Source: Bermanella marisrubri
GTDB lineage: Bacteria; Pseudomonadota; Gammaproteobacteria; Pseudomonadales; Oceanobacteraceae
Direction of reading: 5' to 3'
DNA: 64,000 nt
Assembly: GCF_012295615.1 (NCBI RefSeq)
Contig: NZ_CP051183.1
Span: 3,003,001-3,067,000 of the forward strand
Below are positions 13,559-30,752 of the stretch, in pieces. The notes under the pieces are model-generated. The model made no database searches, was not told the origin of the DNA, and worked only from the letters and a program-made list of their open reading frames with translations. Position numbers and translations under genes: made by a program. Each line of letters opens with the position of its first letter. The first letter of the stretch is position 1.

Positions 13559-13586
13559 TTTACGAAGCATAACAGCCTTTGGATTA
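13559..13586 (-). promoter_or_regulatory. candidate ECF11-type promoter of folX-folE
   Basis: Reading leftwards: TAATCC at 13586-13581, 16 bases, then CGTAAA at 13564-13559. This differs by one base in the -35 element from the TGATCT-N16-CGTAA pattern found at three other operons of the window. The predicted start would lie near 13552, leaving a ~30-base leader that contains CAGGAG. Inference only. Confidence 0.5.
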
Positions 13587-13615
13587 AAACCCATTGCTTG
13601 ATTCAAGACTTTTAG

Positions 13616-13645
13616 TGATCTTATTCGGTCTTTTTTCCGTAATCC
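13616..13645 (+). promoter_or_regulatory. candidate ECF11 (RpoE/ChrR)-type promoter of DUF3429 operon
   Basis: TGATCT at 13616-13621, 18-base spacer ending CCG, then TAATCC at 13640-13645 (equivalently TGATCT-N16-CGTAA). The spacing and bases follow the known Rhodobacter RpoE consensus TGATC(C/T)-N18-TAAGA. The predicted start, about 13652, leaves a 15-base leader with GAGGGGG before the ATG at 13667. Confidence 0.68.
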
Positions 13646-13666
13646 CAGAGAAACCGAGGGGGATTT

Positions 13667-14101
13667 ATGAAAATTGAACGTCTCACCAGCCTACTAACTT
13701 ACGCAGGTGCCATACCCTTTGCTGTCGCTCTGGTCCTCGAATACAGTCAAACGAAGTTGTGGGGTCTAGATGGCGGAAGCTGGTTCATCACTTACGGACT
13801 TGTCATCGTGAGCTTTATGGCAGGCAGTGTTTGGGGACATTCTCTACTGCATGCAGAAAGAAAGCGTAGACCCTTTATTCTCATAAGCACTAACGTTCTT
13901 ACTCTAGTGGCATGGTTTGTTTATATGCTGGCACCACCCATGATGAGTCTCGCGATCAATGGCTTGGCACTCTTGGCCTTGGCTGGGCTTGAGTTACGTT
14001 GGAGCGGCTTGGGCACTGTCGCCGATTATTATCTAATGCTGCGTGCGCGAATTACCCTAGTTGTGTTAGTCATGCATGCCGTAATGCTAGCCATTATTTG
14101 A
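13667..14101 (+). CDS. DUF3429 membrane protein
   Basis: 144 residues with four predicted membrane helices (around residues 12-25, 40-58, 70-92 and 120-142). The opening LTSLLTYAGAIPFAVAL and WFITYGLVIVSFMAGSVWG are typical of DUF3429, a small inner-membrane family of unknown function commonly encoded near photolyases in proteobacteria. It is first in a three-gene operon with a DCC-family protein and an SDR, driven by the ECF-type promoter at 13616-13645. Confidence 0.85.
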   Translation: MKIERLTSLLTYAGAIPFAVALVLEYSQTKLWGLDGGSWFITYGLVIVSFMAGSVWGHSLLHAERKRRPFILISTNVLTLVAWFVYMLAPPMMSLAINGLALLALAGLELRWSGLGTVADYYLMLRARITLVVLVMHAVMLAII

Positions 14102-14131
14102 TCAAAGTGACGTTAAGCTGGAGAAATAATT

Positions 14132-14530
14132 ATGTCCAATGTAACGCTGTTTTATGATGGTAATTGCCCCTTGTGTCTATACGAAGTACGACACTTGCGA
14201 CGCTGGGACACACAACACCGCGTGATATTTGAGGACATCCACCAGCCTGATTTTGCACAGCGCTATCCGGACTTAGACATCGCTGAACTGGATGCACGGC
14301 TCCACGCGTTAGACGGTCAAGGTATTTGGCACACCGGACTGGCGGCAACCTACGTGGTTTGGGAGTCGGTGGGAAAAGGCAACTGGATGCTTCCATTGCG
14401 CTGGAATTGGAGTCGGCGACTGTTAGAACCTGCTTACTGGCTCTTTGCCAAGTACCGCCACCGAATTACTGGGCTATTATTCAATAGGCAATGCCATTCA
14501 AATTGTCGTCAGGTCAATAAGTATGACTAA
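14132..14530 (+). CDS. DCC-family (DUF393) thiol-oxidoreductase-like protein
   Basis: 132 residues. The N-terminal FYDGNCPLCLYEVRHLR carries the DxxCxxC-type DCC motif; later ALDGQGIWHTGLAA and LLFNRQCHSNC... add two further cysteines. The family has a thioredoxin-like fold and is predicted to catalyse thiol-disulfide exchange; no substrate is known. The gene starts 30 bases after the DUF3429 gene and its last 8 bases overlap the next gene. Confidence 0.87.
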   Translation: MSNVTLFYDGNCPLCLYEVRHLRRWDTQHRVIFEDIHQPDFAQRYPDLDIAELDARLHALDGQGIWHTGLAATYVVWESVGKGNWMLPLRWNWSRRLLEPAYWLFAKYRHRITGLLFNRQCHSNCRQVNKYD

Positions 14531-15239
14531 TCTGATTATTGGAGCGAGCAGTGAAATCGCTCAATCCATTACTCGACAGTTACTGTCATCAGGCGAGGTT
14601 GTTCATGGCATTAGTCAGCATCCTCAACCGGCACAAGTTCCCCATGATCAGAATTTACATTGGTGGATATGCCACTATGGGGAAAGTCATATAGAGCAGT
14701 TAGTAGAGTCTTTGCAAGAAACCATCACCGAACCTATAAGTCGCGTTGTAATCTGCAACGGCCAATTGCATGGTGATGGCTTGGTTGTGGAAAAACGACT
14801 GCAAGATTTGCAGGAATCAAGCTTCCATCAAATTATTAACAGCAACGCTTTAGTGCCTTTGCTGTGGCTGAGAGCGCTTCTCCCTTGGCTGAGCAAACAG
14901 GAATGTAAAATCGCCGTTTTTAGTGCTCGCGTGGGTAGCATTGAAGATAACAAGCTGGGTGGTTGGTATAGTTATCGCGCCAGTAAGGCGGCGCTCAATA
15001 TGCTGTTAAAAACCGCTGCTATTGAATACAGCCGACGAGCCAAAAAGATAAAGCTCATGGCGTTCCATCCAGGAACAACAGACACCCCTCTGAGCAAGCC
15101 TTTTCAAGCTAATGTGGCCGAGAGTAAATTATTCGAGCCAGAATTTGTGGCAAAACGACTCCTAGAAATTATGGAGTCGTTGCATATTGATGGGGAGTTA
15201 AGTTATCTAGATTGGGCCGGAGAGCCTATTCGCTGGTAA
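14523..15239 (+). CDS. short-chain dehydrogenase/reductase, C-factor-like
   Basis: About 238 residues, beginning MTNLIIGASSEIAQSITRQL at 14523, inside the end of the DCC gene; an in-frame ATG at 14445 lies deeper in that gene and is unlikely. The Rossmann glycine-rich motif is GASSEIA, the NAG-equivalent is VICNGQLHG, and the catalytic Tyr-Lys pair is YSYRASKAALN. Substrate is unknown. Because it sits in the operon divergent from folX-folE, a FolM-like dihydromonapterin reductase role is conceivable, yet it lacks clear FolM hallmarks that I can name. Confidence 0.82.
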   Translation: MTNLIIGASSEIAQSITRQLLSSGEVVHGISQHPQPAQVPHDQNLHWWICHYGESHIEQLVESLQETITEPISRVVICNGQLHGDGLVVEKRLQDLQESSFHQIINSNALVPLLWLRALLPWLSKQECKIAVFSARVGSIEDNKLGGWYSYRASKAALNMLLKTAAIEYSRRAKKIKLMAFHPGTTDTPLSKPFQANVAESKLFEPEFVAKRLLEIMESLHIDGELSYLDWAGEPIRW

Positions 15240-15269
15240 ACAGCGACTAAGCTCTTATGCAAATTTAAG

Positions 15270-16166
15270 CTATACCTGTTCTTCTGAGATTGGATTCATT
15301 AGTGAATCAAATGGCTCAAAACCCTGCAATGGCAAGAGTGCTTCATCGGACATAATCGCGTCACGGTAGCTTTCTGAACTCTCTAAGACACGCGACAAAT
15401 ATGTTACCGCTTCATTAAACTGATCCATGGCCGCGTGGGCACAGGCCAACTGATACAAAGCATGTATATTCTCAGGATCAATTTTCAGTGCTTGATGACA
15501 TAGATTAATTGCCCATTGTGGCTCAGGAATCTCAAGCACGGCGTCCGCTTTATAAGTTAATGCTTCGCCATCATTCGGTTTCATTTGCAAAATCTGATCG
15601 TAAACCGCAACCTTCTGATGCACATTGGTTTCTTGCGCGGCCTTTAACCATAGATTTTGAATTTCCTGAGTGAGTTCGATTTCTTCACGGTTCTCTTGGA
15701 TATCCAGCGTCTTCTGCTTAAGCTGCTTCTCTACACCGCGCAATCGTTTTTCATATTCTTTGATCAAGCGATTAATTTCTTCATCAGCCAAACTATGAAC
15801 ACGATCTTTGATATCGCGGATCGATGTCCACCCGACAACAACCAAGATGGAAGTAGCTGCGGCGATCAAATAGAAGAAATACGTCACCGTATCAGTCGCA
15901 TAGCGCACCGCCCGATCCACACTCTGATGCTCACGGTCTAGAATTTGCTTTTGTAAATCCACCCGCTGATTGTTCATCTCGGTACGCAAGGCTTTTAATT
16001 CATCCAGCACATAGCGCTCAACAAAAGGCGTATACAAGGGTTGCTGCAGGTTGTTGACCCGCTCTTCTTCTTTTTTAGAAAAGGATTTTTCTTGCTCAGA
16101 ATCAGTTTGGGCCCAAGAATGGGCCCAAAATGTTGAGAGTAATATCACCGCTACGATGCGACGCAT
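15270..16166 (-). CDS. membrane-anchored coiled-coil TPR protein
   Basis: 298 residues. A signal peptide or anchor (residues 1-19, ending WAQ) is followed by a charged helix, a membrane segment at about residues 95-112 (TYFFYLIAAATSILVVVGW), a coiled coil at ~125-170 rich in Glu, Lys and Gln, and two to three TPR-like repeats from ~180 to 270 (NLCHQALKIDPENIHALYQLACAHAA). A scaffold at the inner membrane is likely; no enzyme motif is present. Its start overlaps the end of the ectoine aspartokinase gene by 16 bases, so it is the last gene of that operon. I do not recognise a named family. Confidence 0.7.
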   Translation of the reverse strand: MRRIVAVILLSTFWAHSWAQTDSEQEKSFSKKEEERVNNLQQPLYTPFVERYVLDELKALRTEMNNQRVDLQKQILDREHQSVDRAVRYATDTVTYFFYLIAAATSILVVVGWTSIRDIKDRVHSLADEEINRLIKEYEKRLRGVEKQLKQKTLDIQENREEIELTQEIQNLWLKAAQETNVHQKVAVYDQILQMKPNDGEALTYKADAVLEIPEPQWAINLCHQALKIDPENIHALYQLACAHAAMDQFNEAVTYLSRVLESSESYRDAIMSDEALLPLQGFEPFDSLMNPISEEQV

Positions 16167-17602
16167 ATAGCATCTCCATGGTCATGGACTTCCACCAGAC
16201 AGGCGTGCAAACTCTTAATCGCTTGATCATAATCTTGATCACTGACAATGAACTGCATATCAACCTGTCGCATTGATTGGTGTAATGCTAGCACACTAAT
16301 ATTGCTATCGGCTAAAGCTCGTACGGTTTTTGCTAAAATACCTGGCACATGCATATCACTACCAATGGCCGAAACGATAGCCACTTTGCGCTGACTTACT
16401 TCCGCATCCGTTGAAATCTCTGCTAAGGCTTGGCAGATACGCTTTACAGTTTTCAAGTTCGTGGATACATAATGGGTAATGGTATTAGCATTCACGTCCT
16501 TAGAAATGATATTCACTTTGAAACGCTTCAATACCGCCAAGTATTTTTCGTCATAGGTGCCAAGATTGCCAGCCATGTCTTGGTCAAACAGCTCAATCGC
16601 ATAAACACCTTTACAACCAGCAATGATTTCTACACAAGGCTTATCACTAACATAATCCGTGTCAATTAACGTACCCGCGTGGTCTGGCTCAAACGTGTTT
16701 TTCACACGAAGAGGAATAGCTTGTTGACGCATACCTTTGGCCGCTTTCGGGTGGATCGCTTCCATACCTAAATTTGCCAGCTGATCAGCAACATCATAAT
16801 TCGTGCGGCCAATCGGCACAGCATTTTCTTCGCCTACTAAACGAGGGTCTGCACTACTTAAGTGAAATTCTTTATGAATAACTGCTTCGCGGGCATTAGT
16901 TAGAACCGCGATACGGCTAAACGTCATCTCACTATAGCCACGGTCGAATGTCCGCATCAAACCGTCTTCACTGTGAGCATAACCCGTGGTGATCGGCAGT
17001 TCTTTTGATAGATCTATATCAGAGAATGCTTCTTTAATACGCTCATCCAAACTTACATGTTCTGTGCTTTGCCAAGCGGTTAAGTCCACAAAGCGTGCAT
17101 TAACACCATCGCGTTTTAGCAGTGTCGCTGTATTGTAGGCACTGTGGGCTTCACCAATACTGGCCAACATTTCACGCACAGTATCTAAGTGTTCATCTAG
17201 GGAGAAGTGGCCGTGTTTACACAAAGACTGCAGATCTAACAAGCAATCTTTTGCGCTTTTTAATCGCTCATACAAAAAGGCATTGGCTTTCTCGAGCAAG
17301 TCGGTGTCGCCATACAGTTCGTGGTTAATATCTAATAACTGCTTTTCTAGATTTTCGAACGCTTCAACCCAAGAATCTTCTTCAATCGCATCAGAAAATA
17401 AAGCGTAAATACCAGGCTGCCCGCTTTTCTTATGCTCAAGTAACTTATCTGTAATGCCACCATAAGCGGAGACCACAAATATACGCTGGTATAAGTCGCC
17501 GCTCGCATTATCAGGTTGCTTGATGATGTTATCGCGCACGCTGGCGTAGTCGCTCATGGACGTGCCACCGATTTTTTCTACGCTATGCTCTAAATAAGAC
17601 AT
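16151..17602 (-). CDS. ask: ectoine-type aspartate kinase
   Basis: 483 residues from the ATG at 17602, chosen because CGGAGAT lies 5 bases upstream and the sequence opens SVEKIGGTSM, as in Ask_Ect enzymes; an upstream in-frame start adds 15 poorly conserved residues. It phosphorylates aspartate to supply aspartate semialdehyde for ectoine. FVVSAYGGITDKLLEHKKSG, TAWQSTEH and FDRGYSEMTFSRIAV are kinase signatures; two ACT domains occupy the last ~150 residues. Ask_Ect isoforms are specialised for ectoine operons and insensitive to the usual feedback. It lies downstream of ectC. Confidence 0.92.
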   Translation of the reverse strand: MSYLEHSVEKIGGTSMSDYASVRDNIIKQPDNASGDLYQRIFVVSAYGGITDKLLEHKKSGQPGIYALFSDAIEEDSWVEAFENLEKQLLDINHELYGDTDLLEKANAFLYERLKSAKDCLLDLQSLCKHGHFSLDEHLDTVREMLASIGEAHSAYNTATLLKRDGVNARFVDLTAWQSTEHVSLDERIKEAFSDIDLSKELPITTGYAHSEDGLMRTFDRGYSEMTFSRIAVLTNAREAVIHKEFHLSSADPRLVGEENAVPIGRTNYDVADQLANLGMEAIHPKAAKGMRQQAIPLRVKNTFEPDHAGTLIDTDYVSDKPCVEIIAGCKGVYAIELFDQDMAGNLGTYDEKYLAVLKRFKVNIISKDVNANTITHYVSTNLKTVKRICQALAEISTDAEVSQRKVAIVSAIGSDMHVPGILAKTVRALADSNISVLALHQSMRQVDMQFIVSDQDYDQAIKSLHACLVEVHDHGDAICVAS

Positions 17603-17688
17603 GTTATCTCCGCTTAGGCCGTCATCAATACGACGACCACCACTCACTCTCCATTGACCAAGTTTAGGTTAAAGAATATTAATAAGAA

Positions 17689-18093
17689 TTAATCCGATAC
17701 TTCTTCGGCATCCAATTCATAGGCACCTTCTTCGTTGTGTACTTCCTTGCCATTTAGAGGCGGATTAAAAACACATGCCATTTGCATATCTTTCGTCGCA
17801 CGCAACATATGCTTGTCGTTTTTATCTAGGATGTAAATCGTTCCTGGAGTGATTGCATACTTTTTCCCATCATCTAAGGTTTCAACTTCACCTTCACCAC
17901 TGATGCAGTACACAGATTCGAGGTGATTCTGATAATGAAGCATGAAATCAGCGCCAGCGTAAATCGTTGTAATATGGAAAGAGAAACCCATATTATCGTT
18001 CTTCAGCAACATGCGGGTGCTGTCCCAGTTACCTTTCGGGTCTTTAATGAAACGATCCGATTTTTGGCAATCCTGTAATTGACGTACGATCAT
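17689..18093 (-). CDS. ectC: L-ectoine synthase
   Basis: 134 residues of a single cupin. It cyclises N-gamma-acetyl-diaminobutyrate to ectoine in the cytosol. Motifs [41 protein letters not shown] and [19 protein letters not shown] are those of authentic EctC, with the iron-site residues Glu and His retained, so it should be functional. AAAGG precedes the ATG. Only 50 bases separate it from ectA; the ectB gene expected in between is absent. Confidence 0.97.
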
Positions 18094-18143
18094 AATAAAC
18101 CTTTTATGCAGTAATTAAGTATTTAAAAACAGATGCTATATGA

Positions 18144-18632: not shown

Positions 18633-18764
18633 CTTTTTATCAACACTAATAGTTTCAGTTCTAATTATTTATGCAAGATGAATGCGTTAAGTTAAGGCGC
18701 CTAATACTGTATAAAGCACTTAAAAAGGCGCATATACCTTGAATAAACAATTAATGATTGCTTA

Positions 18765-18788
18765 GTACACTAAATATCGTACACTAAA
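18765..18788. repeat. tandem 10-bp direct repeat in the ectA/ectR control region
   Basis: GTACACTAAA occurs at 18765-18774 and again at 18779-18788, a 14-base period. The pair lies between the divergent ectA and ectR-like genes and may be a regulator binding site. The remaining intergenic sequence also has a hairpin AGGAGC-TCT-GCTCCT at 18856-18870 just ahead of the regulator gene. Confidence 0.45.
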
Positions 18789-18890
18789 CATCTGACCAAT
18801 TCCAGTAACCAAGTGTTTCAGGAGTGGATCAATTGCTTAGAAGTCTAACTAATTCAGGAGCTCTGCTCCTCTATGTCGTATCAATAATAG

Positions 18891-19508: not shown

Positions 19509-19527
19509 ACTTGATCCATGTGAATAT

Positions 19528-19899
19528 CTAGAGCGACACATCCCGTCGCTTTAGATAGCTTTTCAATAGCGCCACCACAAACACACCTTCCAACACGGCC
19601 ATCATCAGCAAACCTTCGTAAGCGCCGTGCAATACGATGCCGATGAGGCGAAAGACAAACAATCCTGCAGAAACCAAAAGTGCAAAATACAATGCACCAG
19701 GGACGAATTGTGCATTGAACGTGCTACCCAGCATGGCCACAGCAATACCAACCTGCAGCCCGCCATAAACCGCAATGAATTCTGCCAAGCCTTGCTGGCT
19801 TAAAGTCATACCTAAGAACTGACTGCTCACGTCTGGGTTTGCCACGCACCACAAACCTGATAATAAATACAAAACACCAATGATTCTTAAAGTAATCAT
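19528..19899 (-). CDS. DUF4345-like four-helix membrane protein
   Basis: 123 residues with four hydrophobic segments. ITLRIIGVLYLLSGLWCVANP and EFIAVYGGLQVGIAVAML match the DUF4345 pattern, small inner-membrane proteins of unknown function. It is the last gene of the SDR-DUF2878-DUF3108 operon, 9 bases after the previous stop, and therefore probably under the ECF-type promoter at 21983-22012. Confidence 0.7.
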   Translation of the reverse strand: MITLRIIGVLYLLSGLWCVANPDVSSQFLGMTLSQQGLAEFIAVYGGLQVGIAVAMLGSTFNAQFVPGALYFALLVSAGLFVFRLIGIVLHGAYEGLLMMAVLEGVFVVALLKSYLKRRDVSL

Positions 19900-19908
19900 G
19901 AAATCGAC

Positions 19909-20634
19909 CTATTCTGGATATTCATACTCAATACGCACGACATAATTCTCGTCGAGTCCTTTGCCACTTCTTACTCGCTCAATATTGCCCAGTCCTTCAT
20001 AGCGAATCAATCGACTTGTTTTTACATCATAGGTTAAGTATGTCGGGTCTACTAAAACGGATAACACCCAGGCACTGGGCGCGAGTTTAATACGTATCGT
20101 CTTGTCGTTTATCTTTTCAGGGCTTACTTCAAATCCATAAAACTCGGCACGACCCACTGCAAGAAAAGCCAAAGAAAGGGTTTTACCTTGCTTTAGCTCG
20201 GGCAAGCTCTGCTGCATAAAATAGTTAAACCCAGCATCCACAACAGCCGGCTTATCTCGCGGCAATTTAACGGATTCTTCCCCTTCGGCACTACGAATTA
20301 ATAAGCGATCAACTTCAACCTGCACTTCAAGACTTTTGGCTAGGCGCTGATCATCGAACTGAAAACTAGGTGAATATGGAATTTTGCCATAATTAAGCTG
20401 TTTAACTGCAAGCTCTTCTCCGTTGGCTTGGGTATACACCACGTTACCCGACACTGGAGCGCCGCTCTCATCGACCTTAATAGAATGCTGCTCAGTGTAG
20501 ATTAAATCACCGCTCTGTTGATCATAAGCCTTACCCGTAAAACGCTCTTCTTTATTCTCTTCGGCAATCCCTGAGAAACTAACCAACGATAAAAGAAACA
20601 CGGGCAGGCACGCGAAATGTATAACTCTTAACAT
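19909..20634 (-). CDS. DUF3108-like exported protein
   Basis: About 241 residues from the ATG at 20634, chosen because AAAAAGGA stands 8 bases upstream and a signal peptide follows (LRVIHFACLPVFLLSLVSFSGIA). The mature protein is beta-rich, with FQFDDQRLAKSLEVQVEV and YLTYDVKTSRLIRYEGLGNI, resembling periplasmic DUF3108/lipocalin-like proteins found beside DUF2878 in ChrR-controlled operons. A lipid-related role is possible but unproven. It overlaps no neighbour and sits between DUF2878 and DUF4345 genes. Confidence 0.65.
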   Translation of the reverse strand: MLRVIHFACLPVFLLSLVSFSGIAEENKEERFTGKAYDQQSGDLIYTEQHSIKVDESGAPVSGNVVYTQANGEELAVKQLNYGKIPYSPSFQFDDQRLAKSLEVQVEVDRLLIRSAEGEESVKLPRDKPAVVDAGFNYFMQQSLPELKQGKTLSLAFLAVGRAEFYGFEVSPEKINDKTIRIKLAPSAWVLSVLVDPTYLTYDVKTSRLIRYEGLGNIERVRSGKGLDENYVVRIEYEYPE

Positions 20635-20659
20635 GTTTATATCCTTTTTGATTCGACTG

Positions 20660-21193
20660 CTATACCGAATCTTGTATCGAATCCGATTCTGACGATTGCC
20701 CAATTAAATGAGCAAACCCTTGCGTTAAAGCGGCCCACGATCCCCAAGCAGCAATCATCCAAGGAATATCTGAATTGACAAACATAAGTAAATCTAATTC
20801 TCTACCCGCCAAATATGAAACTGGCCCCATAATCGCAGCAGCTACAATAAAAATCACAGGCTTTGCAAATAGCCAAGCCAGAGATAAGCAAAGGCTGGTT
20901 GCAAAGGCAAACCACATACAAAGCAACCAAAACGGAAAACCTAAAACGTGAGCTGGGTTATTTAAAAAGGTATAGATACCAAGATGATGGAAACTTGAAT
21001 CCATAGCGATCCCCAACAGAATCGCTCCCGTTACAAGCAGAGCTTGCTTGGCCACGCCTGATCTATATACGACTGATAATTGAATCAAGCCAGCAATGAC
21101 AAACAACGAAGACAATAACCATGAAACCAATGCCGCGCTAAACCAAGCGAACTGAAACAAGACGGCATTTAAAAGTATGTGCTGCTTGTTCAT
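20660..21193 (-). CDS. DUF2878 membrane protein
   Basis: 177 residues, five to six membrane helices. LLNAVLFQFAWFSAAL at the start, LLGIAMDSSFHHLGIY and FPFWLLCMWFAFATSL are typical of DUF2878, an inner-membrane family of unknown function that recurs next to SDR and cyclopropane-synthase genes in photooxidative-stress clusters. Its start overlaps the SDR stop by 4 bases (ATGA). Confidence 0.88.
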   Translation of the reverse strand: MNKQHILLNAVLFQFAWFSAALVSWLLSSLFVIAGLIQLSVVYRSGVAKQALLVTGAILLGIAMDSSFHHLGIYTFLNNPAHVLGFPFWLLCMWFAFATSLCLSLAWLFAKPVIFIVAAAIMGPVSYLAGRELDLLMFVNSDIPWMIAAWGSWAALTQGFAHLIGQSSESDSIQDSV

Positions 21194-21963
21194 GAGTTTT
21201 CACCTTGAGGTTCGAAGCGCGACATCTTACCGAGCAGCCAAAACTTTAAGCGGTGAGGTAAGAATGAGAAAAGCTTTAGCAATAAGGTAAAACGTTTAGG
21301 AAAATGAATATCGAAACGGGATCCATCCAACCCTTTAACAATGCGTTTAGCTGCATCCTCACTGGTAATAACAAACGGCATTTCGAAGTCATTTTTATCA
21401 GTAAGCGGCGTCTTCACAAAACCTGGGCTGACAACGCGCACATCAATACCTTGATGCTGCACATCGGCTTTCAAGCATTCTGTAAAGTAACGAATGGCAG
21501 CCTTACTTGCACCATAAGCATGTGCTCTAGTCAGAGCTTGATAGCTCACACTACTGGAAACAATCACAAGCTGAGGTTTTTGCCCCCCAGTCACAGCGTC
21601 ATAAAGAAAAGGTAGAGAGGCATTGATCATGTTGATCGCGCCAAAGAAATTAATCTCAAATACACGGCGAACAAGATCCACATCCACGGGCAACAGATCC
21701 ACGTATTCTGCCGTCCCCGCGTTAATAATCACTTTGTCGAGATGGCCAGTGATTGTTTTAACTTTCTGCTGAGCTTGCTGAATACTGGCAGCATCTGTCG
21801 CATCCAAGGGTACAGCATGCAAATGATCATTTTTGTCACAAATATCATTCAGCTTTTGCTCATTACGTGCGCTAACAAGTACATTATGACCCTGATCTGC
21901 ATACGCTTGTGCCACCGATAAACCAATACCGCTTGATGCACCGATAACCCATATCTGTTGCAT
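21190..21963 (-). CDS. short-chain dehydrogenase/reductase of the ECF regulon operon
   Basis: 257 residues. Classical SDR features: GASSGIG cofactor motif at residues 8-14, INAGTAEYV, the catalytic Ser in IVSSSVSYQ and YGASKAA with the Tyr-Lys pair; VSPGFVKTPLTDKNDF follows. The C-terminal LLLKLFSFLPHRLKFWLLGKM is hydrophobic and basic, suggesting membrane association. AGGAGG lies 5 bases before the ATG. It is first in an operon led by the ECF-type promoter at 21983-22012. The substrate is unknown; an acyl-lipid intermediate is a reasonable guess from neighbours. Confidence 0.88.
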   Translation of the reverse strand: MQQIWVIGASSGIGLSVAQAYADQGHNVLVSARNEQKLNDICDKNDHLHAVPLDATDAASIQQAQQKVKTITGHLDKVIINAGTAEYVDLLPVDVDLVRRVFEINFFGAINMINASLPFLYDAVTGGQKPQLVIVSSSVSYQALTRAHAYGASKAAIRYFTECLKADVQHQGIDVRVVSPGFVKTPLTDKNDFEMPFVITSEDAAKRIVKGLDGSRFDIHFPKRFTLLLKLFSFLPHRLKFWLLGKMSRFEPQGENS

Positions 21964-23128: not shown

Positions 23129-23190
23129 ACCTGGTTCCTTTTTACTTCAAGGTTCCAGTGCCATTTTTATCTTGCTCTTATTTTTAATTG

Positions 23191-23364: not shown

Positions 23365-23402
23365 TAATTGTATATTACACAGGGAAAGGAATACTTATCA
23401 TA

Positions 23403-24665
23403 TCAAACTGGATTGTGCTTATACTCAGGCTTAGCCCAAACCAGATGACTAACGCCAATAGCTCGCTCAGCAAAACCACCTTCACAGTAGCTTAAATAAA
23501 AACGCCACATGCGCTTAAAGTCTTCGCTATAGCCAAGTTTAGAAATTTCTTCATCATGGGCATTGAAAGCGTCTTGCCAGAGTTTCAAGGTATGACTGTA
23601 ATGAGCGCCAAAATCATGCAGCTCTACCAAATTTAAATCCGTATGCTTCTTGGTTGAGGTAAGCATTGCTTGAATACTAGGAATACAGCTACCAGGGAAA
23701 ATATAGCGCTGAATAAAGTCCACATTTTTGAGAGCACGATCATAGCGCTGATCTTCAATGGTAATAGCTTGGATCAACATTAGGCCATCGGGCTTGAGTA
23801 GCGACGCACATTTCTCAAAGTAAGTATCAAAGAACTGATGGCCAACCGCTTCAATCATTTCAATAGAAACCAGCTTGTCGTAAGTTCCCTCTAACTTGCG
23901 ATAATCTTCTTTGAGTAATGTAATTTGACCTTCCAACCCGTGTTCTTTAATACGCTCTTTGGCAAGATTATATTGCTCTTCGCTAATAGTGGTCGTCGTG
24001 ACTTTACAGCCATAATTTTTCGCGGCATAAACTGCAAACCCACCCCATCCTGTGCCGATTTCCACCACATGATCGTCAGCGGTTAAATGCAATCGCTCAC
24101 AAATCGTTTTGAGTTTATTCAGGGAGGCCTCTTCCATCGTCGCGTCAGCGGTGGGGAAAATACCACTGGAGTACATCATGGTCGGATCTAAAAATAACTC
24201 AAATAATTCGTTACCCAGATCGTAATGGGCTGCGATGTTACGGCGACTGCCTTTTTCATTGTTCTGATTTAAGCGGTGGAAGAACTTTAAGAAAGGGCCA
24301 GAGATCAGCGAGGCAATGCCCCCTTCCATGGCATTCATCAGATCGATATTTCTAGCCATCACGCGCACGGCTTTGGTCAAATCGGGAGTGGTCCAATCAC
24401 CTGTCATATACGCCTCCGCGGCACCGATACTGCCACCAGTAAGGATATCAACATAGGCGCTAGCATCTTGGATATGCAGTTCTGCATAAAGATCATGATC
24501 TGCAGTTAGATTTTCACCAAAGACAAAGGCGTCATCGCCCTCTTTTATCACCAAGCATCCTGTATGCAGTTTTTGTAACTGCCCGTGAATTAGCTTACGC
24601 GCCAATTTACGCAAAAAACTCAATCGACTTTTTTTAATATCCAGTTCCGCTACTGACGTGGCCAT
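23403..24665 (-). CDS. cyclopropane-fatty-acid-synthase family SAM methyltransferase
   Basis: 420 residues. Methylates unsaturated acyl chains of membrane phospholipids using SAM. Signatures include MYSSGIF, SAM-binding VEIGTGWGGFAVYAA, and ISxEQYxLAxERI-like SEEQYNLAKERI. The protein is of the group that clusters with DUF1365 and an FAD oxidoreductase; in Rhodobacter relatives of this set (UfaM/UfaD/UfaO) make methylated and furan fatty acids, known singlet-oxygen scavengers. Whether this one makes cyclopropane or methyl-branched products cannot be read from sequence. It is last in the operon started at 30681. Confidence 0.9.
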   Translation of the reverse strand: MATSVAELDIKKSRLSFLRKLARKLIHGQLQKLHTGCLVIKEGDDAFVFGENLTADHDLYAELHIQDASAYVDILTGGSIGAAEAYMTGDWTTPDLTKAVRVMARNIDLMNAMEGGIASLISGPFLKFFHRLNQNNEKGSRRNIAAHYDLGNELFELFLDPTMMYSSGIFPTADATMEEASLNKLKTICERLHLTADDHVVEIGTGWGGFAVYAAKNYGCKVTTTTISEEQYNLAKERIKEHGLEGQITLLKEDYRKLEGTYDKLVSIEMIEAVGHQFFDTYFEKCASLLKPDGLMLIQAITIEDQRYDRALKNVDFIQRYIFPGSCIPSIQAMLTSTKKHTDLNLVELHDFGAHYSHTLKLWQDAFNAHDEEISKLGYSEDFKRMWRFYLSYCEGGFAERAIGVSHLVWAKPEYKHNPV

Positions 24666-24676
24666 ACCGGAGACTC

Positions 24677-25507
24677 CTATCTTGTTTTATTGTCGGCCCC
24701 TTGAGGGGTAGCCGTTTTGGTTTTTGGGTGATCGTAAAAAGGCACCTTCATCCACAATCTCAAGGCGTGCCAGTAAATACCCCACATCACCTTTACGGTT
24801 ATTAAAGGGGTTTGGATCAAGCTCTTAGGTAACGCCTGCCAACTGCGCTTTTCCATGGTTAAGGTAGCATCAAAATGCTTTTCATTGTCTGCATCCTGCA
24901 TAAAGTTATCCATATGCACATGCAGTTTCTCGCCAGGTTCAGAAAACACCCAGCGATAATCCATATTCATTGGGTTAAATGGCGATACATGAAACTGTTT
25001 TGCAAAATGGAAAATATGCTTATTATCGCCTTTCAGCTCCACTTTCATGGCCGCGTCGCTTTGCCCTTTCGGCAAGACATAACTATGGCGCTCACCCCAG
25101 GGCGTATTGGTTATTTGCGATACGATTGCAACCAGTTGATCGAATTCATCATAGCAATAATAAAAACTTACGGGATTAAAAATGATATTGAAGTGTCTCC
25201 CATGAGTGAGCAACATCACTCGCGTAATGTTTTGATATTGTAAACCACGCTCAGCAAAATCCTTTTCCACATGGTCAATAATCGACTGTTTCAAATCTGA
25301 CTGATTACCTTGAAAGTAATCATCGCGTCTTAGGCTCAACAAATTAAAACGCTCAAGGGAGGCGTACCATTTTCCACGAAAGATCTCAGACCATTCATCA
25401 AGATCAATGAACATCATGTACAAAGAGTAGTTCAGCTCATGACGCTTGGGTAAAAAGCGGCGATGGCGTACTTCTCCTTGGTAAATACATGAATTCTTAA
25501 TGCTCAT
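24677..25507 (-). CDS. DUF1365 family protein
   Basis: About 276 residues from the ATG at 25507, one base after the preceding stop. CIYQGEVRHRRFLPKRHELNYSLY in pieces, MFIDLDE, and NPVSFYYCYDE are the diagnostic DUF1365 segments. No biochemical function is established, but the gene nearly always sits between an FAD-dependent oxidoreductase and a CFA-type methyltransferase, as here, so a step in modified fatty acid formation is likely. An in-frame start 21 bases upstream would overlap the previous gene. Confidence 0.9.
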   Translation of the reverse strand: MSIKNSCIYQGEVRHRRFLPKRHELNYSLYMMFIDLDEWSEIFRGKWYASLERFNLLSLRRDDYFQGNQSDLKQSIIDHVEKDFAERGLQYQNITRVMLLTHGRHFNIIFNPVSFYYCYDEFDQLVAIVSQITNTPWGERHSYVLPKGQSDAAMKVELKGDNKHIFHFAKQFHVSPFNPMNMDYRWVFSEPGEKLHVHMDNFMQDADNEKHFDATLTMEKRSWQALPKSLIQTPLITVKVMWGIYWHALRLWMKVPFYDHPKTKTATPQGADNKTR

Positions 25508-25508
25508 A

Positions 25509-26783
25509 TCAATCGATTCCAATGCCAAAGTCCTTACACACCATCAGTGCGCTATTCACTCCGTCTTCGTGGAAACCATTTAACCAATAGGCTCCGCAAA
25601 AATGCGTGCGATTTTTGCCACTGATGTCGCTATGGCGTTTTTGCGACGCGACACCATCCAGTGTGAAGACGGGGTGTGCATAACGGAACTTAGCAATAAT
25701 CTTATCAGGGTCAATCTCTTGATTGCGATTTAAGGTAACCAAAAAGGTTTCGTCCGCGTCCTGATAATTTTGCAAGATATTCATATTATAGGTGACCATG
25801 GCATATTCGCTTTTACGTTGCGGAATATGATAGTTCCATGCCGCCCATGCCAATTTTCGCTTGGGCATCAAGCGCTCATCTGTGTGTAATACCACGTCGT
25901 TCATTTGATAAGGAATGGTGCCCAGAATATGCTCTTCATCCATACTGGCGTCACTTAACATGGACAATGCTTGATCGCTATGACAGGCGAATATTACTTG
26001 ATCAAACTCGTGAGTGCCTTGATTAGTCGTGATTGTCACACCAGTATCATGGCGCTTCACAGAGGTCACTGGCGTATTTAAATGAATACGTTCTTTAAAC
26101 GGCGCGGTAATAGGATCAATGTAAGAACGAGAGCCACCGGTCAGCACTCGCCAGGTTGGTCGATCATCGACACTGAGCATGCCATGGTTATTAAAGAATT
26201 GAAGGAAGAACTTTAATGGAAAGTCCATCATCACATCCACAGATGCGGACCAAATGGCGCTGCCCATGGGGACAATGTAGTGATGCACAAATTCTTTGCC
26301 GTAACCTTGCTCTTCCACAAATTCACCAAGTGTCTGACCCTCGTCTATCTTTTGCTGACTCAATGCGGATACGGTTTCTTTGTTAAAGCGCAGAATGTCC
26401 CGCACCATGCGCAAGAAGCGTGGTCGAATTATATTAATACGCTGGGCAAATAAGCTATTCAAGCTGGTGCCGTTGTATTCTAAACCTGAGTTTTCATCGC
26501 GCACACTGAAACTCATGTCCGACTCTTCGCTCTCCACACCCAACTTGTCCATTAACTTGATAAAGTTAGGATAGGTCCAGTCGTTAAATACGATAAAGCC
26601 GGTATTCACTGGATAGGTTTTACCATTGGATTCAACATCGTAGGTATGTGTGTGGCCGCCAAGGTAATCATTGGCTTCGAATAATGTGATCTCGTGTTTC
26701 TGCGATAAAAGATATCCACATGTGAGACCAGAAATACCAGAACCAACAATAGCGATTCTTTGTTGTTCATTATTATTTTGCAT
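25509..26783 (-). CDS. FAD-dependent amine-oxidase-fold protein
   Basis: 424 residues. The N-terminal dinucleotide motif is IVGSGISGLTCGYLLS, with ITLFEANDYLGGHTHTYDVE after it, then NTGFIVFNDWTYPNF; these are typical of the NAD/FAD oxidoreductase always paired with DUF1365 and CFA-type genes. A C-terminal FAD block CGAYWLNGFHEDGVNSALMV is also present. The Rhodobacter counterpart is thought to act as a fatty acid desaturase (UfaD-like); the same role here is inference. Located between the NTF2-like and DUF1365 genes in the ECF-controlled operon. Confidence 0.88.
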   Translation of the reverse strand: MQNNNEQQRIAIVGSGISGLTCGYLLSQKHEITLFEANDYLGGHTHTYDVESNGKTYPVNTGFIVFNDWTYPNFIKLMDKLGVESEESDMSFSVRDENSGLEYNGTSLNSLFAQRINIIRPRFLRMVRDILRFNKETVSALSQQKIDEGQTLGEFVEEQGYGKEFVHHYIVPMGSAIWSASVDVMMDFPLKFFLQFFNNHGMLSVDDRPTWRVLTGGSRSYIDPITAPFKERIHLNTPVTSVKRHDTGVTITTNQGTHEFDQVIFACHSDQALSMLSDASMDEEHILGTIPYQMNDVVLHTDERLMPKRKLAWAAWNYHIPQRKSEYAMVTYNMNILQNYQDADETFLVTLNRNQEIDPDKIIAKFRYAHPVFTLDGVASQKRHSDISGKNRTHFCGAYWLNGFHEDGVNSALMVCKDFGIGID

Positions 26784-26803
26784 CTATTAACTATCCCTAA
26801 AAA

Positions 26804-27241
26804 TTAACCAAAACGCTTTTTCAATGCGCCAATCGCCCAACCTAAAACGGGCACGTGCTCATAAAGCAAAGCACCGCCATCAAAATAATCTTTGTGAGAG
26901 TAAATTTTATCGTGAAACTTTAATTTCGAAGCACCATCAACGGTGACTGGCTCACCTTTATTGAGCTTGGGATGGACGAAGGTCATCGTCCACGTGATCA
27001 CGGCTGCGCCATCTTTTACATAGCGATCATGAAACTGGAATTCACAACGGGTTACATTTTCGTACATATCGGCACAGTACTTTAGATACTGCGACATGCC
27101 TTCGATTCGATGAAACGGATCAATAAACACAATATCATCGGCATAAACATCTTTTACCAACTCTATGCTGTCTTTATTCAAAGAGTGGTAAAGCTGCTCG
27201 AATCGATCAAGAGGATGCTGAGCTAAATCGGTTTGCTGCAT
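26804..27241 (-). CDS. SnoaL/NTF2-like protein
   Basis: About 145 residues from the ATG at 27241; GGGGAAG precedes it. The fold is suggested by LDRFEQLYHSLNKDSIELVKDVYADDIVFIDPFH read in segments and ITWTMTFVHPKL, matching nuclear-transport-factor-2-like proteins with a polar cavity. Members occur regularly in the CFA-DUF1365-FAD cluster; the ligand is unknown. Starts just after the desaturase stop and is followed 20 bases later by the FAD gene. Confidence 0.8.
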   Translation of the reverse strand: MQQTDLAQHPLDRFEQLYHSLNKDSIELVKDVYADDIVFIDPFHRIEGMSQYLKYCADMYENVTRCEFQFHDRYVKDGAAVITWTMTFVHPKLNKGEPVTVDGASKLKFHDKIYSHKDYFDGGALLYEHVPVLGWAIGALKKRFG

Positions 27242-27242
27242 A

Positions 27243-28196
27243 TCACTTCCCCTTCTCACGACCTTCGCGCAAGATTTTCTCAGGCACGGGAGTTAGATCA
27301 TAAATAATGCCCAGCTTACTCATGGCCTTCAAAATATAATAAGAAATATCAATCTCCCACCAGTAAAACCCTTGGCGAGCAGACGTAGCAAATCGATGGT
27401 GGTTGTTGTGCCAACCTTCGCCCAAGGTAATTAGGGCTAACCAAAAATTATTTCGACTATCATCGCGGGTTTCAAAACGGCGTTTGCCCCATTGATGACA
27501 CAAAGAATTAATCGTAAAAGTGCCGTGAAATAAAAGCACCGTAGAAATGAAGTACCCCCAGATCAGCATCTGCCAACCACTAGTACCTAGATTGGGCCAT
27601 AAGGCATTCAATACTACACCCAAAGCAAACATGCATACCGCCATTAAAACAGGGACGAGACTATCGTAGCGGTTTAGGAATTTAAGCTCTGGAAATTTTG
27701 CCCAATCTTTTACCACTGAATAGTCAGTTTTAAAGGCCGCATCACAAGTAAACCATCCCACGTGGCTCCACCAAAAACCGTGTTTCACTGGGCTGTGCAA
27801 ATCTTCGTCTTCGTCACTATGCTTATGATGTTTGCGGTGATGGGCTGCCCACCAAAGAGGTCCGCGCTGAGATGCGCTATTACCAAGAATCGCGAAGCAA
27901 AATTGCCAAAAGCGATTAGTTTTAAAACTGCGGTGGGAAAAATAGCGATGATAAAACGCGGTAATGGCAAACATTCTTACCCAATACATTAGTAAGCATA
28001 CGGCAACGGCGACGGGACTGATGCCCACCCAAATTACGGCGATACAGGCTAAATGAATAAAGATGAATGGCATGACCCGCAGCCAGTTCATTTCACGGCT
28101 TTCGGCGCCGTCTTTTAAGGGGGCGTCTTGCTGTTCAGCGTCCACCCATAACTTGATCGTTCGCCACAACGAGCCAGCGCTTCTGCTAATGCTCAT
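27243..28196 (-). CDS. acyl-CoA/lipid delta-9-type fatty acid desaturase
   Basis: 317 residues with membrane helices at ~42-75, and two near 170-215. The three histidine boxes are HRYFSH (83-88), HRKHHKHSD (120-128) and EGWHNNHHRF, which bind the diiron centre that inserts a double bond in saturated acyl chains at the inner membrane. Start overlaps the photolyase stop (ATGA). Having an O2-dependent desaturase in the ECF operon links it with the CFA-type methyltransferase, which needs an unsaturated acyl substrate. Confidence 0.92.
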   Translation of the reverse strand: MSISRSAGSLWRTIKLWVDAEQQDAPLKDGAESREMNWLRVMPFIFIHLACIAVIWVGISPVAVAVCLLMYWVRMFAITAFYHRYFSHRSFKTNRFWQFCFAILGNSASQRGPLWWAAHHRKHHKHSDEDEDLHSPVKHGFWWSHVGWFTCDAAFKTDYSVVKDWAKFPELKFLNRYDSLVPVLMAVCMFALGVVLNALWPNLGTSGWQMLIWGYFISTVLLFHGTFTINSLCHQWGKRRFETRDDSRNNFWLALITLGEGWHNNHHRFATSARQGFYWWEIDISYYILKAMSKLGIIYDLTPVPEKILREGREKGK

Positions 28197-29629
28197 ATTA
28201 AAGACTCCTGAGAATAAAATTCTTTATTTGAGGCATCCAACTCTTTAAACCACTGCTTAGTTTGTACCACTGCTTGTTTATGATCCACAATCGGGGCTGG
28301 ATAGCCCAGCTTCTTAACCGTAATGGGATCTGGGTTATGTATTCGCTTATCATCTAAGCTAGCCAGCTCGGGCACGTACTGCCTCAAAAATGTACCTTTA
28401 CTATCAAAACGTTCACTTTGGCGAATTGGATTAAAAATACGAAAGTATGGAACAGCATCCACACCAGTAGACGCACTCCACTGCCAACCGCCATTGTTAC
28501 TGGCGAGATCGCCATCGATCAGCTGTTGCATGAAATAGGCCTCACCTAAGCGCCAATCAATAAATAAATGCTTGCTTAAAAACATAGCGGCGACCATGCG
28601 CAAACGATTATGCATCCATCCAGTTTGATTTAATTGGCGCATGGCTGCATCAACCAGCGGATAGCCAGTACGACCATCACACCACGCTTGGAACAAGGCT
28701 TGATCTTTTTTCCATGGCAAATGATCGGTTTCTTGCTTAAAGGCTTTGTATTGACAAACATGAGGAAAGAAATAAATGAGGTGACGATAAAAATCTCTCC
28801 AAATCAATTCAGATTGCCAGGTCGCTATACCCTCAGGCTTGCTTCCCGAAGGGCTCACTTGCTGCGACATCTGCCAACACTGACGAACGCTCAAACTACC
28901 GATGGCTAAATAAGGGCTTAGCGTACTAGTGCCATCCAGCGATGGAATATCACGATCACGTTTGTAGGCTTTGATTCGATCTTTACAAAATTCATCCAAT
29001 GCATCCAGCGCAACCTGTTCACTACCTTGCCAAGGGTCAATATCCACCTGAGCAATAGATTGCAAAGCACTGATATCGGTTTTTACTTTGGGTGCTTGCT
29101 GTTTCTTTGGCAACGGATATAAATCCCTCATGTAAATATCCAACTGCGCTAAATATGCCTTCTTAAACGCGGTGAAAACTTTGTAAGGTTGATCTTGTTT
29201 GTTAACAATAACACCTGGTTGTATTAAGCACTGATCATGATATTCATGACATTTTATATCCTGTTGCTGTAAAGCTTCTGTCACATTTTTAGTCAGCGCC
29301 ACTTCATTAACTTCGTATTCAGCATTGCAAAACAGTTGCTCAACATTGTATTGCTGCAAAACACTCACGAATGTTTTAGGAATGGATTTAAAATCCGCGG
29401 TATCAATGACAATGAGTGGCACACCCAAAGCCGCAAGTGATTGCGTTAAATCTTCTAACTGCTGACGTATAAGTGATCGCTGGCGTAGAGAGACTTGATG
29501 CTCGTCCCATTGTTTTTGCGCTAAGCAATAGAACGCAATGCACTGACCGTTTTTCATGGCATGGAATAGCGCCGGATTGTCGTGAACACGAAGGTCTCGT
29601 CGAAACCAAACGGCATTAAAACTAGACAT
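28193..29629 (-). CDS. phrB: class I CPD photolyase
   Basis: 478 residues from the ATG at 29629 (SSFNAVWFRRDLRVHDNPAL), which overlaps the upstream TGA by one base; an earlier in-frame start would extend into that gene. Light-dependent repair of cyclobutane pyrimidine dimers. FAD-domain hallmarks are ELIWRDFYRHLIYFFP, GWMHNRLRMVAAMFLSKHL, and NNGGWQWSASTGVDAVPYFR followed by IFNP. This is the fourth cryptochrome/photolyase family gene in the window and the one linked directly to the sigma-ChrR pair. Confidence 0.95.
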   Translation of the reverse strand: MSSFNAVWFRRDLRVHDNPALFHAMKNGQCIAFYCLAQKQWDEHQVSLRQRSLIRQQLEDLTQSLAALGVPLIVIDTADFKSIPKTFVSVLQQYNVEQLFCNAEYEVNEVALTKNVTEALQQQDIKCHEYHDQCLIQPGVIVNKQDQPYKVFTAFKKAYLAQLDIYMRDLYPLPKKQQAPKVKTDISALQSIAQVDIDPWQGSEQVALDALDEFCKDRIKAYKRDRDIPSLDGTSTLSPYLAIGSLSVRQCWQMSQQVSPSGSKPEGIATWQSELIWRDFYRHLIYFFPHVCQYKAFKQETDHLPWKKDQALFQAWCDGRTGYPLVDAAMRQLNQTGWMHNRLRMVAAMFLSKHLFIDWRLGEAYFMQQLIDGDLASNNGGWQWSASTGVDAVPYFRIFNPIRQSERFDSKGTFLRQYVPELASLDDKRIHNPDPITVKKLGYPAPIVDHKQAVVQTKQWFKELDASNKEFYSQESLI

Positions 29630-30681
29630 CAAGCGCTCTCCAAATGACTTTCTAGTATCACTTCTGCGGCGGCCATACCACTCAAACAAGCCGACTCGGC
29701 ATCACTCACTCGCAATGCCTGAGGTTGCTGCTCCGTATAGGCTTTATAGGCGTAATCAGATGCAATTAATAAATCTGGTCTAAGAGTAATATATCCTGAT
29801 GATAGCCTAATGTCCCTGTCTATTAATTCTTGGCCGATACCGTCCGCATATTGGCTATAAAGCCATCGATGCGTGTGCTGAGCAATTGGACGCAATGGAC
29901 CCAGAACCGCCTCTGCCGCCTGAATCAACTTTTCACCTACTTTGGCTTTATCATCGTCAAGATGCGTCAAGGAAAATTCGGTAGTTGCTTGCAGCTTTAA
30001 CAAACTATGACCAGCACTATCCCGTTGAGGTTTGCAATGCTCGAAAGCAATACTGTGCAGAGCATTGTCGTCCAACTTCATAATGGCATCACTGCTCGAT
30101 ATTTTTTTATTGGTCGCCACCAGCGTAACAAAACTTGGATGACAACTGAGTGACGTTAGCGCAGATTTAATCTTGGCAAACTCATTTGGCAATATGGCCG
30201 ATGCCTGTTGTGCTGGAGCCGTTATAATCACGTGAGAAGCACTCACGTCCGTTTTCTTCCCTTCCGTGTTTTCAAGCGACAACTGCCAGCCACCATTTAC
30301 GCTTGATGCCAAAGAAAGCACACGAGTAGACAGTAGAAAATCACAATTCTCTGTTAGGGCTCGCGTGACCACCGAGTTGCGTCCGCGACCGCAATAAAAA
30401 TCGTGATCGTCTCGTTGAAACCACAAATCAATTTGTTCATTTTTTTGTAATGTTGCGAGACGCGCTTGCCATTGTGCACTGTTGGCTTCGAATGCACTTA
30501 GCCCCATATCAAAGCCAACCGAATGCTCATCGTCACATTGCAGGCGCTTACTAGACGCACGCCCGCCAGTGCCGCGCGCCTTATCGATTAACAAAACTCG
30601 ATGTCCTTGAGCCTGCAAAGTATAAGCGGCATTCACGCCCGCCAAACCCGCTCCGATGATGATAATTGGATAGTGCTGCAT
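29629..30681 (-). CDS. FAD-dependent oxidoreductase, amine-oxidase-like
   Basis: 350 residues. IIIGAGLAGVNAAYTLQAQGHRVLLIDKARGTGGRASS in parts is the FAD-binding opening of the renalase-like/NAD(P)-FAD oxidoreductase group commonly adjacent to phrB. A C-terminal block DLLIASDYAY...ESACLSGMAAAEVIL completes the flavin site. Substrate unknown. It is first in the leftward operon and has the ECF-type promoter 30723-30752 immediately upstream, divergent from the sigma factor gene. Confidence 0.87.
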   Translation of the reverse strand: MQHYPIIIIGAGLAGVNAAYTLQAQGHRVLLIDKARGTGGRASSKRLQCDDEHSVGFDMGLSAFEANSAQWQARLATLQKNEQIDLWFQRDDHDFYCGRGRNSVVTRALTENCDFLLSTRVLSLASSVNGGWQLSLENTEGKKTDVSASHVIITAPAQQASAILPNEFAKIKSALTSLSCHPSFVTLVATNKKISSSDAIMKLDDNALHSIAFEHCKPQRDSAGHSLLKLQATTEFSLTHLDDDKAKVGEKLIQAAEAVLGPLRPIAQHTHRWLYSQYADGIGQELIDRDIRLSSGYITLRPDLLIASDYAYKAYTEQQPQALRVSDAESACLSGMAAAEVILESHLESA

Positions 30682-30722
30682 ATGATGATAAAACCTTATC
30701 TGATACCATGCATTTTGTGAGC

Positions 30723-30752
30723 CTTTTACGCTCCACGGACTGACTCAGATCA
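30723..30752 (-). promoter_or_regulatory. candidate ECF11 (RpoE/ChrR)-type promoter of phrB/cfa operon
   Basis: Leftward reading: TGATCT at 30752-30747, 18-base spacer ending GCG, TAAAAG at 30728-30723. The same TGATCT-N16-CGTAA pattern occurs at 21983-22012 and 13616-13645. Its position next to the gene for the matching sigma factor makes this the strongest of the set. Predicted start is near 30717, 36 bases before the ATG. Confidence 0.75.

Follow-up and report, generated by a model that had tools for sequence, protein, structure and literature searches.

The window (the whole 64,000-nt stretch of Bermanella marisrubri DNA analysed here) carries a sigma factor gene at 30831–31442 (+), with Pfam regions 2 and 4, and downstream of it, in an overlapping arrangement, the gene of a ChrR-type zinc/cupin anti-sigma factor at 31409–32071 (+). 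The best solved match of the sigma factor is RpoE of Rhodobacter sphaeroides (2q1z, E 6.7e-34), placing it in the ECF11 type, and the anti-sigma factor scores above the TIGR02451 cut-off, contains the ChrR cupin and matches ChrR 2z2s at E 5.8e-33. The H-x3-C-x2-C and H-x-H-x3-E patterns are kept in the alignment to 2z2s; their residues are presumably the metal ligands.

A long operon on the reverse strand, assigned by Pfam, starts with an NAD(P)/FAD-binding oxidoreductase (29629–30681) and continues with a DNA photolyase (28193–29689), a fatty acid desaturase family protein (27243–28196, PF00487), a SnoaL-like protein (26804–27259), a UfaD-like flavin amine-oxidase-like protein (25509–26783, PF01593), a UfaO-like DUF1365 protein (24677–25528, PF07103) and a UfaM-like methyltransferase of the cyclopropane-fatty-acid-synthase (cfa) type (23403–24665, PF02353). 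UfaD of R. sphaeroides is RSP1091 and UfaO contains DUF1365 (PMC7380195), while the Pseudomonas syringae orthologue of RSP1091 is annotated as a flavin-containing amine oxidase (PMC5507510). At the level of protein family, the methylase, the FAD desaturase-like protein and the DUF1365 protein together match the furan fatty acid pathway. A second reverse-strand operon consists of an SDR gene (21190–21963), a DUF2878 gene (20660–21193; both Pfam), a gene without Pfam match (19909–20703) and a weak DUF4345 match below the Pfam cut-off (19528–19899). On the forward strand, Pfam recognizes a DUF3429 gene (13667–14101), a DCC1-like thiol oxidoreductase (14132–14530) and a second SDR (14445–15239). 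Divergent from these are folX, encoding dihydroneopterin triphosphate 2'-epimerase (13135–13521, −; NCBIfam NF008418, above cut-off), and folE, encoding GTP cyclohydrolase I (12484–13128, −; Pfam PF01227). The six core ECF11 targets besides the sigma pair include SDR, amine oxidase, DUF1365, phr, cfa and a lipoprotein (PMC5507510); five of the six are matched in the window, all except the lipoprotein, in two operons each preceded by a promoter-like site.

Exact copies of TGATCT-N16-CGTAA lie at 30752–30726 (−), 22012–21986 (−) and 13616–13642 (+), ending 44, 22 and 24 nt before the start codons of the photolyase operon's first gene, the SDR gene and the DUF3429 gene, respectively. A degenerate TAATCC-N16-CGTAA at 13586–13560 (−) ends 38 nt before folX. 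The sequence-only reading had named these four sites and noted a CG preceding each −10 element; all four are where it put them, with CGTAA at N16 in every case. Its list was nevertheless incomplete, as it overlooked an exact TGATCC-N16-CGTAA at 24819–24793 (−), within the DUF1365 gene and 128 nt upstream of the cfa/ufaM-like gene. TGATCC/T-N16-CGTA is the published ECF11 promoter motif (PMC4336711, PMC5507510, PMC5241685); two mapped Shewanella transcript starts lie at the same N16 motif (PMC4336711), and ChIP-seq in P. syringae returned it as well (PMC5507510). As far as sequence goes, the target genes of the window thus carry ECF11-type sites.

The 3.55-Mb genome holds six exact TGATCY-N16-CGTAA sites, four of them in the window, against an expectation of 0.063 per 64 kb (Poisson P(≥4) = 6e-7, P(≥3) = 4e-5), which bears out the earlier view that a chance origin is improbable. 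The genome scan proposed along with that view confirmed the cluster, but it revealed no genome-wide excess over the reversed pattern, either for exact N16 sites (6 vs. 9) or at up to one mismatch (123 vs. 122), the reversed pattern being an imperfect control because it contains CTAG. With the gap varied from 1 to 31, TGATCY-N-CGTAA had 108 genome matches vs. 91 for the reversed pattern, or about 3.5 per spacing. The signal is therefore one of position, not of number. A scoring matrix derived exclusively from other genomes (42 sites, most of them themselves found by consensus) ranked 30752 top in the window and placed the four originally claimed sites within the best eight positions. All eight scored at least 14, compared to a mean of 0.37 such positions in 200 first-order simulations; the remaining four were 24819, 31211 (within the sigma gene), 29729 (antisense in the first gene of the photolyase operon) and 56646.

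Conservation of the sites was followed in relatives, genomes being counted as ECF11-positive on the sigma match alone. The site of the photolyase operon is present in 12 of the 13 genomes matching its first gene, the window included (seven exact, five with one mismatch). Before the SDR orthologue, G005 and G008 have an exact site and G007 one with a single mismatch. Five g6 genomes, with the SDR gene placed after chrR, have none at up to one mismatch. The DUF3429 site is exact in G034, a genome of another family whose DUF3429 and sigma genes are some 3.5 kb apart, and reads TGAGCC in G005 and G002. Among genomes having the DUF3429 gene, 4/8 ECF11-positive vs. 0/9 ECF11-negative ones show, no more than 50 nt before it, a site with one mismatch or none. 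The folX site is kept in position, as GGATCC in G002 and GAATCC in G005 and G008, with CGTAA at N16 in all, and is lacking from five further folX orthologues, three of them in ECF11-positive genomes. Of the operons that the sequence-only reading had tied together, the photolyase/lipid, SDR-DUF2878 and DUF3429-DCC-SDR operons are supported, whereas folX-folE has the weakest of the sites, its −35 being degenerate in all four genomes with the site. The site inside the DUF1365 gene, which recurs exactly, on the same codons, in G005 and L032, and with one mismatch in G008 (28 aligned genes), is a possible internal promoter before cfa, inseparable from coding conservation because the lineages are too few.

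Neither the window nor any of 10 close relatives has a recognisable autoregulatory site in the 250 nt upstream of its sigma gene, the best score (mismatches plus 0.5 for N15 or N17) being 2.5 or more. Of the other ECF11 genomes, 18 of 22 carry one there with no more than one mismatch; autoregulation of rpoE-chrR is a common, not a defining, ECF11 feature.

Several further candidates were considered. In the photolyase gene of 12 Idiomarina-type loci and five g6 genomes, TGATC falls on the sole codon-invariant Asp and CGT on the sole codon-invariant Arg (7 Asp and 9 Arg columns being invariant in the combined set). The control consisted of plasmid-collection records with hosts not sorted by ECF11 status, 12 chosen of 60 listed and 11 readable at the motif. 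It had CGT at the same Arg in 11/11, among them E. coli, Klebsiella and two Salinivibrio genes in which the −35 cannot form. Codon invariance is therefore no evidence for a promoter, and the intragenic site was dropped. An exact site at C1:3351596 (−) faces away from an SDR39U1-type gene, antisense over a tiny ORF, and was judged non-functional; the SDR39U1-type gene itself has a degenerate AAATCC-N16-CGTAA 34 nt upstream. The pattern RATCCAAA-N13-CGTAA, chosen after seeing its matches, has only three exact ones in the genome (folX, DUF1365 and the SDR39U1-type gene) and no excess over the control at up to one mismatch (23 vs. 25). The own genome has 117 one-mismatch sites in all. Twenty regions, picked by mismatch type among the matches listed, hold 21 of them. 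Two are intergenic and followed by an ORF: TAATCC before an HhH-GPD gene that reads as MutY-like, and TGAACT before a DUF6279 gene. Another has no ORF downstream, and the rest are inside ORFs. Among 18 remote exact sites from G002, G003, G005, G007 and G008, 10 fall inside ORFs of at least 100 aa. A MoxR-type ATPase has an exact site in G008, G005 and G002 and a two-mismatch one in the own genome.

Outside the window, on the same contig, an exact site precedes a BLUF-dodecin-ChaC operon. The regulon had been called local, a term too narrow given this distant operon. Among 18 similar BLUF genes in ECF11-positive genomes (own included), 10 have an exact and 15 an at most one-mismatch version of TGATC-N16-18-CGTAW, leaving three without a site within one mismatch. 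The BLUF loci of ECF11-negative genomes have such a site in 0/8 cases, and none of 16 less similar BLUF genes, seven of them in ECF11-positive genomes, has one. In several genera of this order, the ECF11 singlet-oxygen sigma factor is likely to act directly on the BLUF blue-light receptor gene as a conserved target. If so, a damage alarm would set the amount of a light sensor, thereby linking the sensing of chemical damage with that of light, and photo-oxidatively damaged cells would gain blue-light vision ahead of the next exposure. This link is probably new, as no description of it was found in the literature searched.

Overall, the window sites are, with high probability, promoters of the sigma factor at 30831–31442 and form an ECF11 sigma/ChrR regulon, as the sequence-only reading proposed. 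This rests on the protein match to the R. sphaeroides pair, the match to the published motif, the conserved placement in relatives and the association with the sigma gene. We observe the sites themselves, how they cluster and are conserved, and how they go together with the sigma gene; their use by this sigma factor is what we infer. The sigma/ChrR alarm very probably switches on the adjacent DNA-repair and membrane-protection genes, and by analogy with R. sphaeroides its trigger would be singlet oxygen. In the unstressed cell, the sigma factor would be held by ChrR; exposure to singlet oxygen or organic hydroperoxides would cause loss of ChrR, and the released sigma factor would guide RNA polymerase to TGATCY-N16-CGTAA. 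The photolyase and furan-fatty-acid synthesis (UfaM/UfaD/UfaO-like) would be turned on, as would the SDR-DUF2878 and DUF3429-DCC-SDR operons, the BLUF operon outside the window and, probably, folX-folE for pterin synthesis.

It is extremely unlikely that there is no regulon and that the pattern recurs through chance or coding coincidence. Coding does account for several matches within genes (D-L-x5-R in the sigma gene, D-P-x5-R-K in the photolyase), and counts over the whole genome show no excess compared to the reversed-pattern control, but the exact intergenic sites are clustered next to the sigma gene (for three of them, P is about 4e-5), their positions are kept in relatives although the spacers diverge, and the BLUF-gene sites track the presence of the sigma gene. 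Hardly more credible is light control by another regulator of the LitR/CarH MerR type, as in Pseudomonas, with the ECF11-like sites minor or relict. In P. mendocina, phrB, SDR, FAD oxidoreductase, ufaM and folM-folE-folX are light-induced, and LitR homologues regulate there and in P. putida (PMC9758184); moreover, phrB lies downstream of a MerR gene in two Salinivibrio records. Against this, the adjoining regulators in the window are sigma and ChrR, and the ECF11-negative relatives examined have no ECF11 motif before their BLUF or DUF3429 genes.

A more serious alternative, possible though not the one we favour, limits the local regulon to the photolyase/lipid, SDR and DUF3429 operons, folX-folE just sharing the divergent intergenic region. 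The TAATCC/GGATCC/GAATCC readings of the folX −35, the absence of the site from five other orthologues and the general conservation of the block around it in G002, G005 and G008 fit this limit. Yet 4/4 genus members with the close orthologue retain ATCC and, at N16, CGTAA, and the targets of Rhodobacter RpoE include FolE2, a GTP cyclohydrolase (PMC7074977).

The system itself is a further example of the known ECF11 sigma/ChrR type. With the Pseudomonas LitR (PmlR/PplR) light regulon it has phrB, SDR, FAD oxidoreductase, ufaM, folE and folX in common, light-induced there under a MerR-type protein with a LOV partner instead of an ECF sigma factor. Shewanella oneidensis RpoE2-ChrR, in the parts of its description available to us, likewise has TGATCC-N16-CGTAA/T promoters, two with mapped starts, and a phrB-cfa operon; it differs in being autoregulated, in its periplasmic glutathione peroxidase and ferrochelatase targets, and in that no BLUF gene was found among the targets described in those parts. 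P. syringae PSPTO_1043/1042 resembles the present case in its TGATCC-N16-CGTA ChIP-seq motif, its phrB-cfa locus, its many bound sites within coding regions and its targeting of a photoreceptor operon (bphO-bphP), although that photoreceptor is a bacteriophytochrome, not BLUF, and a bound site precedes its own sigma gene. The R. sphaeroides sigma-E/ChrR (ECF11) singlet-oxygen regulon shares related sigma and ChrR sequences, the SDR, UfaD, UfaO, UfaM/cfa and photolyase targets and a GTP cyclohydrolase. Here, in contrast, the sigma gene lacks a recognisable site, FolE-FolX probably takes the place of FolE2 as a target, and an extra desaturase and the DUF3429-DCC-SDR and BLUF operons are present. 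A well-supported ECF11 regulon is thus added, and the target list would grow by the BLUF photoreceptor and DUF3429-DCC-SDR operons.

The sigma gene (30831-31442, forward strand) encodes a protein whose best solved relative is RpoE of R. sphaeroides (2q1z, E 6.7e-34). The gene overlapping it downstream (31409-32071, forward strand) encodes a ChrR anti-sigma factor, which exceeds the TIGR02451 cut-off and matches 2z2s (E 5.8e-33), with zinc and cupin patterns that align with this structure; the cognate sigma/anti-sigma pair proposed by the sequence-only reading is borne out by these matches. All four promoter-like sites of that reading were found in the window, at 30752, 22012, 13616 and 13586, each ending 22-44 nt before a start codon. 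Three are exact TGATCT-N16-CGTAA, and the one ahead of folX (13586) reads TAATCC-N16-CGTAA. An additional exact TGATCC-N16-CGTAA (24819-24793) is located within the DUF1365 gene, 128 nt ahead of the CFA-type gene. When window positions were ranked with a matrix built on 42 sites from other genomes, most of them found via the consensus, the four sites were all in the top eight and 30752 came first.

With boundaries inferred from gene order, the sites precede four operons. Operon 1 (30681 down to 23403) encodes a FAD oxidoreductase, a photolyase, a desaturase, a SnoaL-like protein, an amine-oxidase-like protein, DUF1365 and a CFA-type protein; operon 2 an SDR, DUF2878, an unknown protein and a weak DUF4345; operon 3 DUF3429, DCC and an SDR; and operon 4 FolX (equivalog above cut-off) and FolE. 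By family, the last three proteins of operon 1 correspond to UfaD, UfaO and UfaM, described as the furan fatty acid synthesis proteins, UfaO being RSP1090 (PMC7380195). The core ECF11 targets named in PMC5507510 (SDR, lipoprotein, amine oxidase, RSP1090, photolyase and cfa) can all be recognised in the window except the lipoprotein. Situated among the operons of the predicted regulon are genes for an ectoine synthase (17689-18093) and for an amino-acid-kinase/ACT protein (16151-17647).

The unusual feature of the sites is their location. With the spacer left free from 1 to 31, the 3.55-Mb genome contains 108 pairs of the two boxes, which averages to about 3.5 for each spacer length, and the reversed pattern forms 91. 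Only six exact pairs have N16, four of them within the window, where 0.063 are expected per 64 kb (P(>=4) = 6e-7; P(>=3) = 4e-5). The sites concentrate in the window, but their genome-wide number does not exceed that of the reversed pattern, either exactly (6 vs 9) or at up to one mismatch (123 vs 122).

A sigma match at E <= 1e-30 classed 22 of 55 genomes (own included) in one set, and 11 of 18 in a second, as ECF11-positive. The order of operon 1 next to the sigma gene is kept in G002, G005, G008, G013, G019, G023, G027, G031 and L032; the sequence stops inside the operon in G007 and L031, and G039 has its first gene and photolyase only. Counting the window, 13 genomes were compared for the site ahead of the first gene, and all but L032 have it. 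The photolyase genes of L037-L051, G013, G019, G023, G027 and G031 carry an internal TGATCC-N16-CGTAA at D-P-x5-R-K, where the Arg codon is CGT even in photolyases unable to form the -35. The SDR site of operon 2 has no mismatch in G005 or G008 and one in G007; among the sites listed, the five genomes of genus g6, in which the SDR gene follows chrR, have none with fewer than two mismatches. Among genomes having the DUF3429 gene, a site within 50 nt occurs in 4 of 8 ECF11-positive vs 0 of 9 ECF11-negative ones, and G034, from another family, has an exact one about 3.5 kb from its sigma gene. The folX site is degenerate, present in four genus members and absent from five further orthologues. No recognisable site was found in the 250 nt upstream of the sigma gene in the window and ten close relatives (best candidates at 2.5 or more, scored as mismatches plus 0.5 for N15/N17), while 18 of 22 other ECF11 genomes have one; in the window, none within 30682-30830 is directed at the sigma gene. 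Autoregulation may have been lost in this clade; it is reported in Shewanella (PMC4336711), and binding data point to it in P. syringae (PMC5507510).

Two exact sites lie outside the window. One, at C1:591716-591742, is 2.4 Mb away on the contig and ends 35 nt ahead of a BLUF-domain gene followed by dodecin and ChaC genes (C1:591716-593120; L018, 1501-2905), so the regulon is probably not purely local as had been claimed. The BLUF orthologues of G008, G005 and G034 also have an exact upstream site. BLUF genes were taken at E <= 1e-24, a cut fixed only after the first site results were known, from searches of 55 genomes and of 293 genomes of the order, and the 200 nt ahead of each gene were scored with TGATC-N16-18-CGTAW, a consensus taken from the literature (PMC5241685). 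Of 18 genes from genomes that are ECF11-positive, the window's own among them, 10 had an exact site and 15 one at up to one mismatch; 300 permuted motifs gave means of 0.03 and 0.54 of 18 (maxima 3 and 12). ECF11-negative genomes had a site at none of 8 loci (7 genomes). Since six of the exact cases belong to genus g27 and three to g1, the independent count is lower; by genus, at least one gene at up to one mismatch was found in 5 of 7 that are ECF11-positive and in 0 of 4 that are ECF11-negative. No site was present at any of the sixteen scored BLUF genes of lower similarity, seven of which are in ECF11-positive genomes; the genomes of named ECF11 loci gave a BLUF match in 5 of 20, all of this less similar kind and without a site. 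Within the 1.5 kb covered, ChaC follows BLUF in G002, G005 and G008, and dodecin only in the window's genome. A search mostly of literature outside subscription journals found no publication that counts a BLUF gene among the targets of ECF11/ChrR.

Further candidate targets were noted. In three members of the genus, a MoxR-type AAA ATPase gene of high conservation has an exact site 81-82 nt ahead of it, with differing spacers (G008:C105:14813, G005:C2:1175534, G002:C37:14378; L213, L209, L218); the window's genome has a two-mismatch site only. Exact sites with partly shared spacers occur 196 nt ahead of an sdhC-looking gene (G005:C2:4852, G008:C75:2682; L207, L212), and, in one genome each, 28 nt ahead of an AhpC/TSA-family gene (G008:C120:33203, L214) and 31 nt ahead of a glutathione S-transferase gene (G002:C2:14185, L217). 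In the window's genome, AAATCC-N16-CGTAA lies 34 nt ahead of a DUF1731/epimerase-family gene (C1:3351743-3351768, L310), and TAATCC-N16-CGTAA just ahead of an HhH-GPD, MutY-like gene (C1:175305-175331, L289), a plausible target because 8-oxoguanine arises from singlet oxygen.

Overall, motif, spacing, sigma/ChrR matches and conservation in relatives support the reading of a predicted ECF11 sigma/ChrR regulon. Motif and spacing are the same as in Shewanella, there with mapped starts (PMC4336711), and as in the P. syringae ChIP motif (PMC5507510). The described ECF11 trigger is singlet oxygen, and furan fatty acids act in ChrR turnover (PMC6852236); in P. mendocina, a similar gene set is induced by light, with LitR homologues (PMC9758184). 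The least certain member is folX-folE, supported as a target by the control of a GTP cyclohydrolase gene by Rhodobacter RpoE, though that gene, folE2 (PMC7074977), differs from the window's folE. The bacteriophytochrome operon among the P. syringae targets (PMC5507510) gives ECF11 control of a photoreceptor a precedent, though one of another type than BLUF. The window's system is a further case of the already known ECF11/ChrR kind, and the new element is the putative BLUF target.
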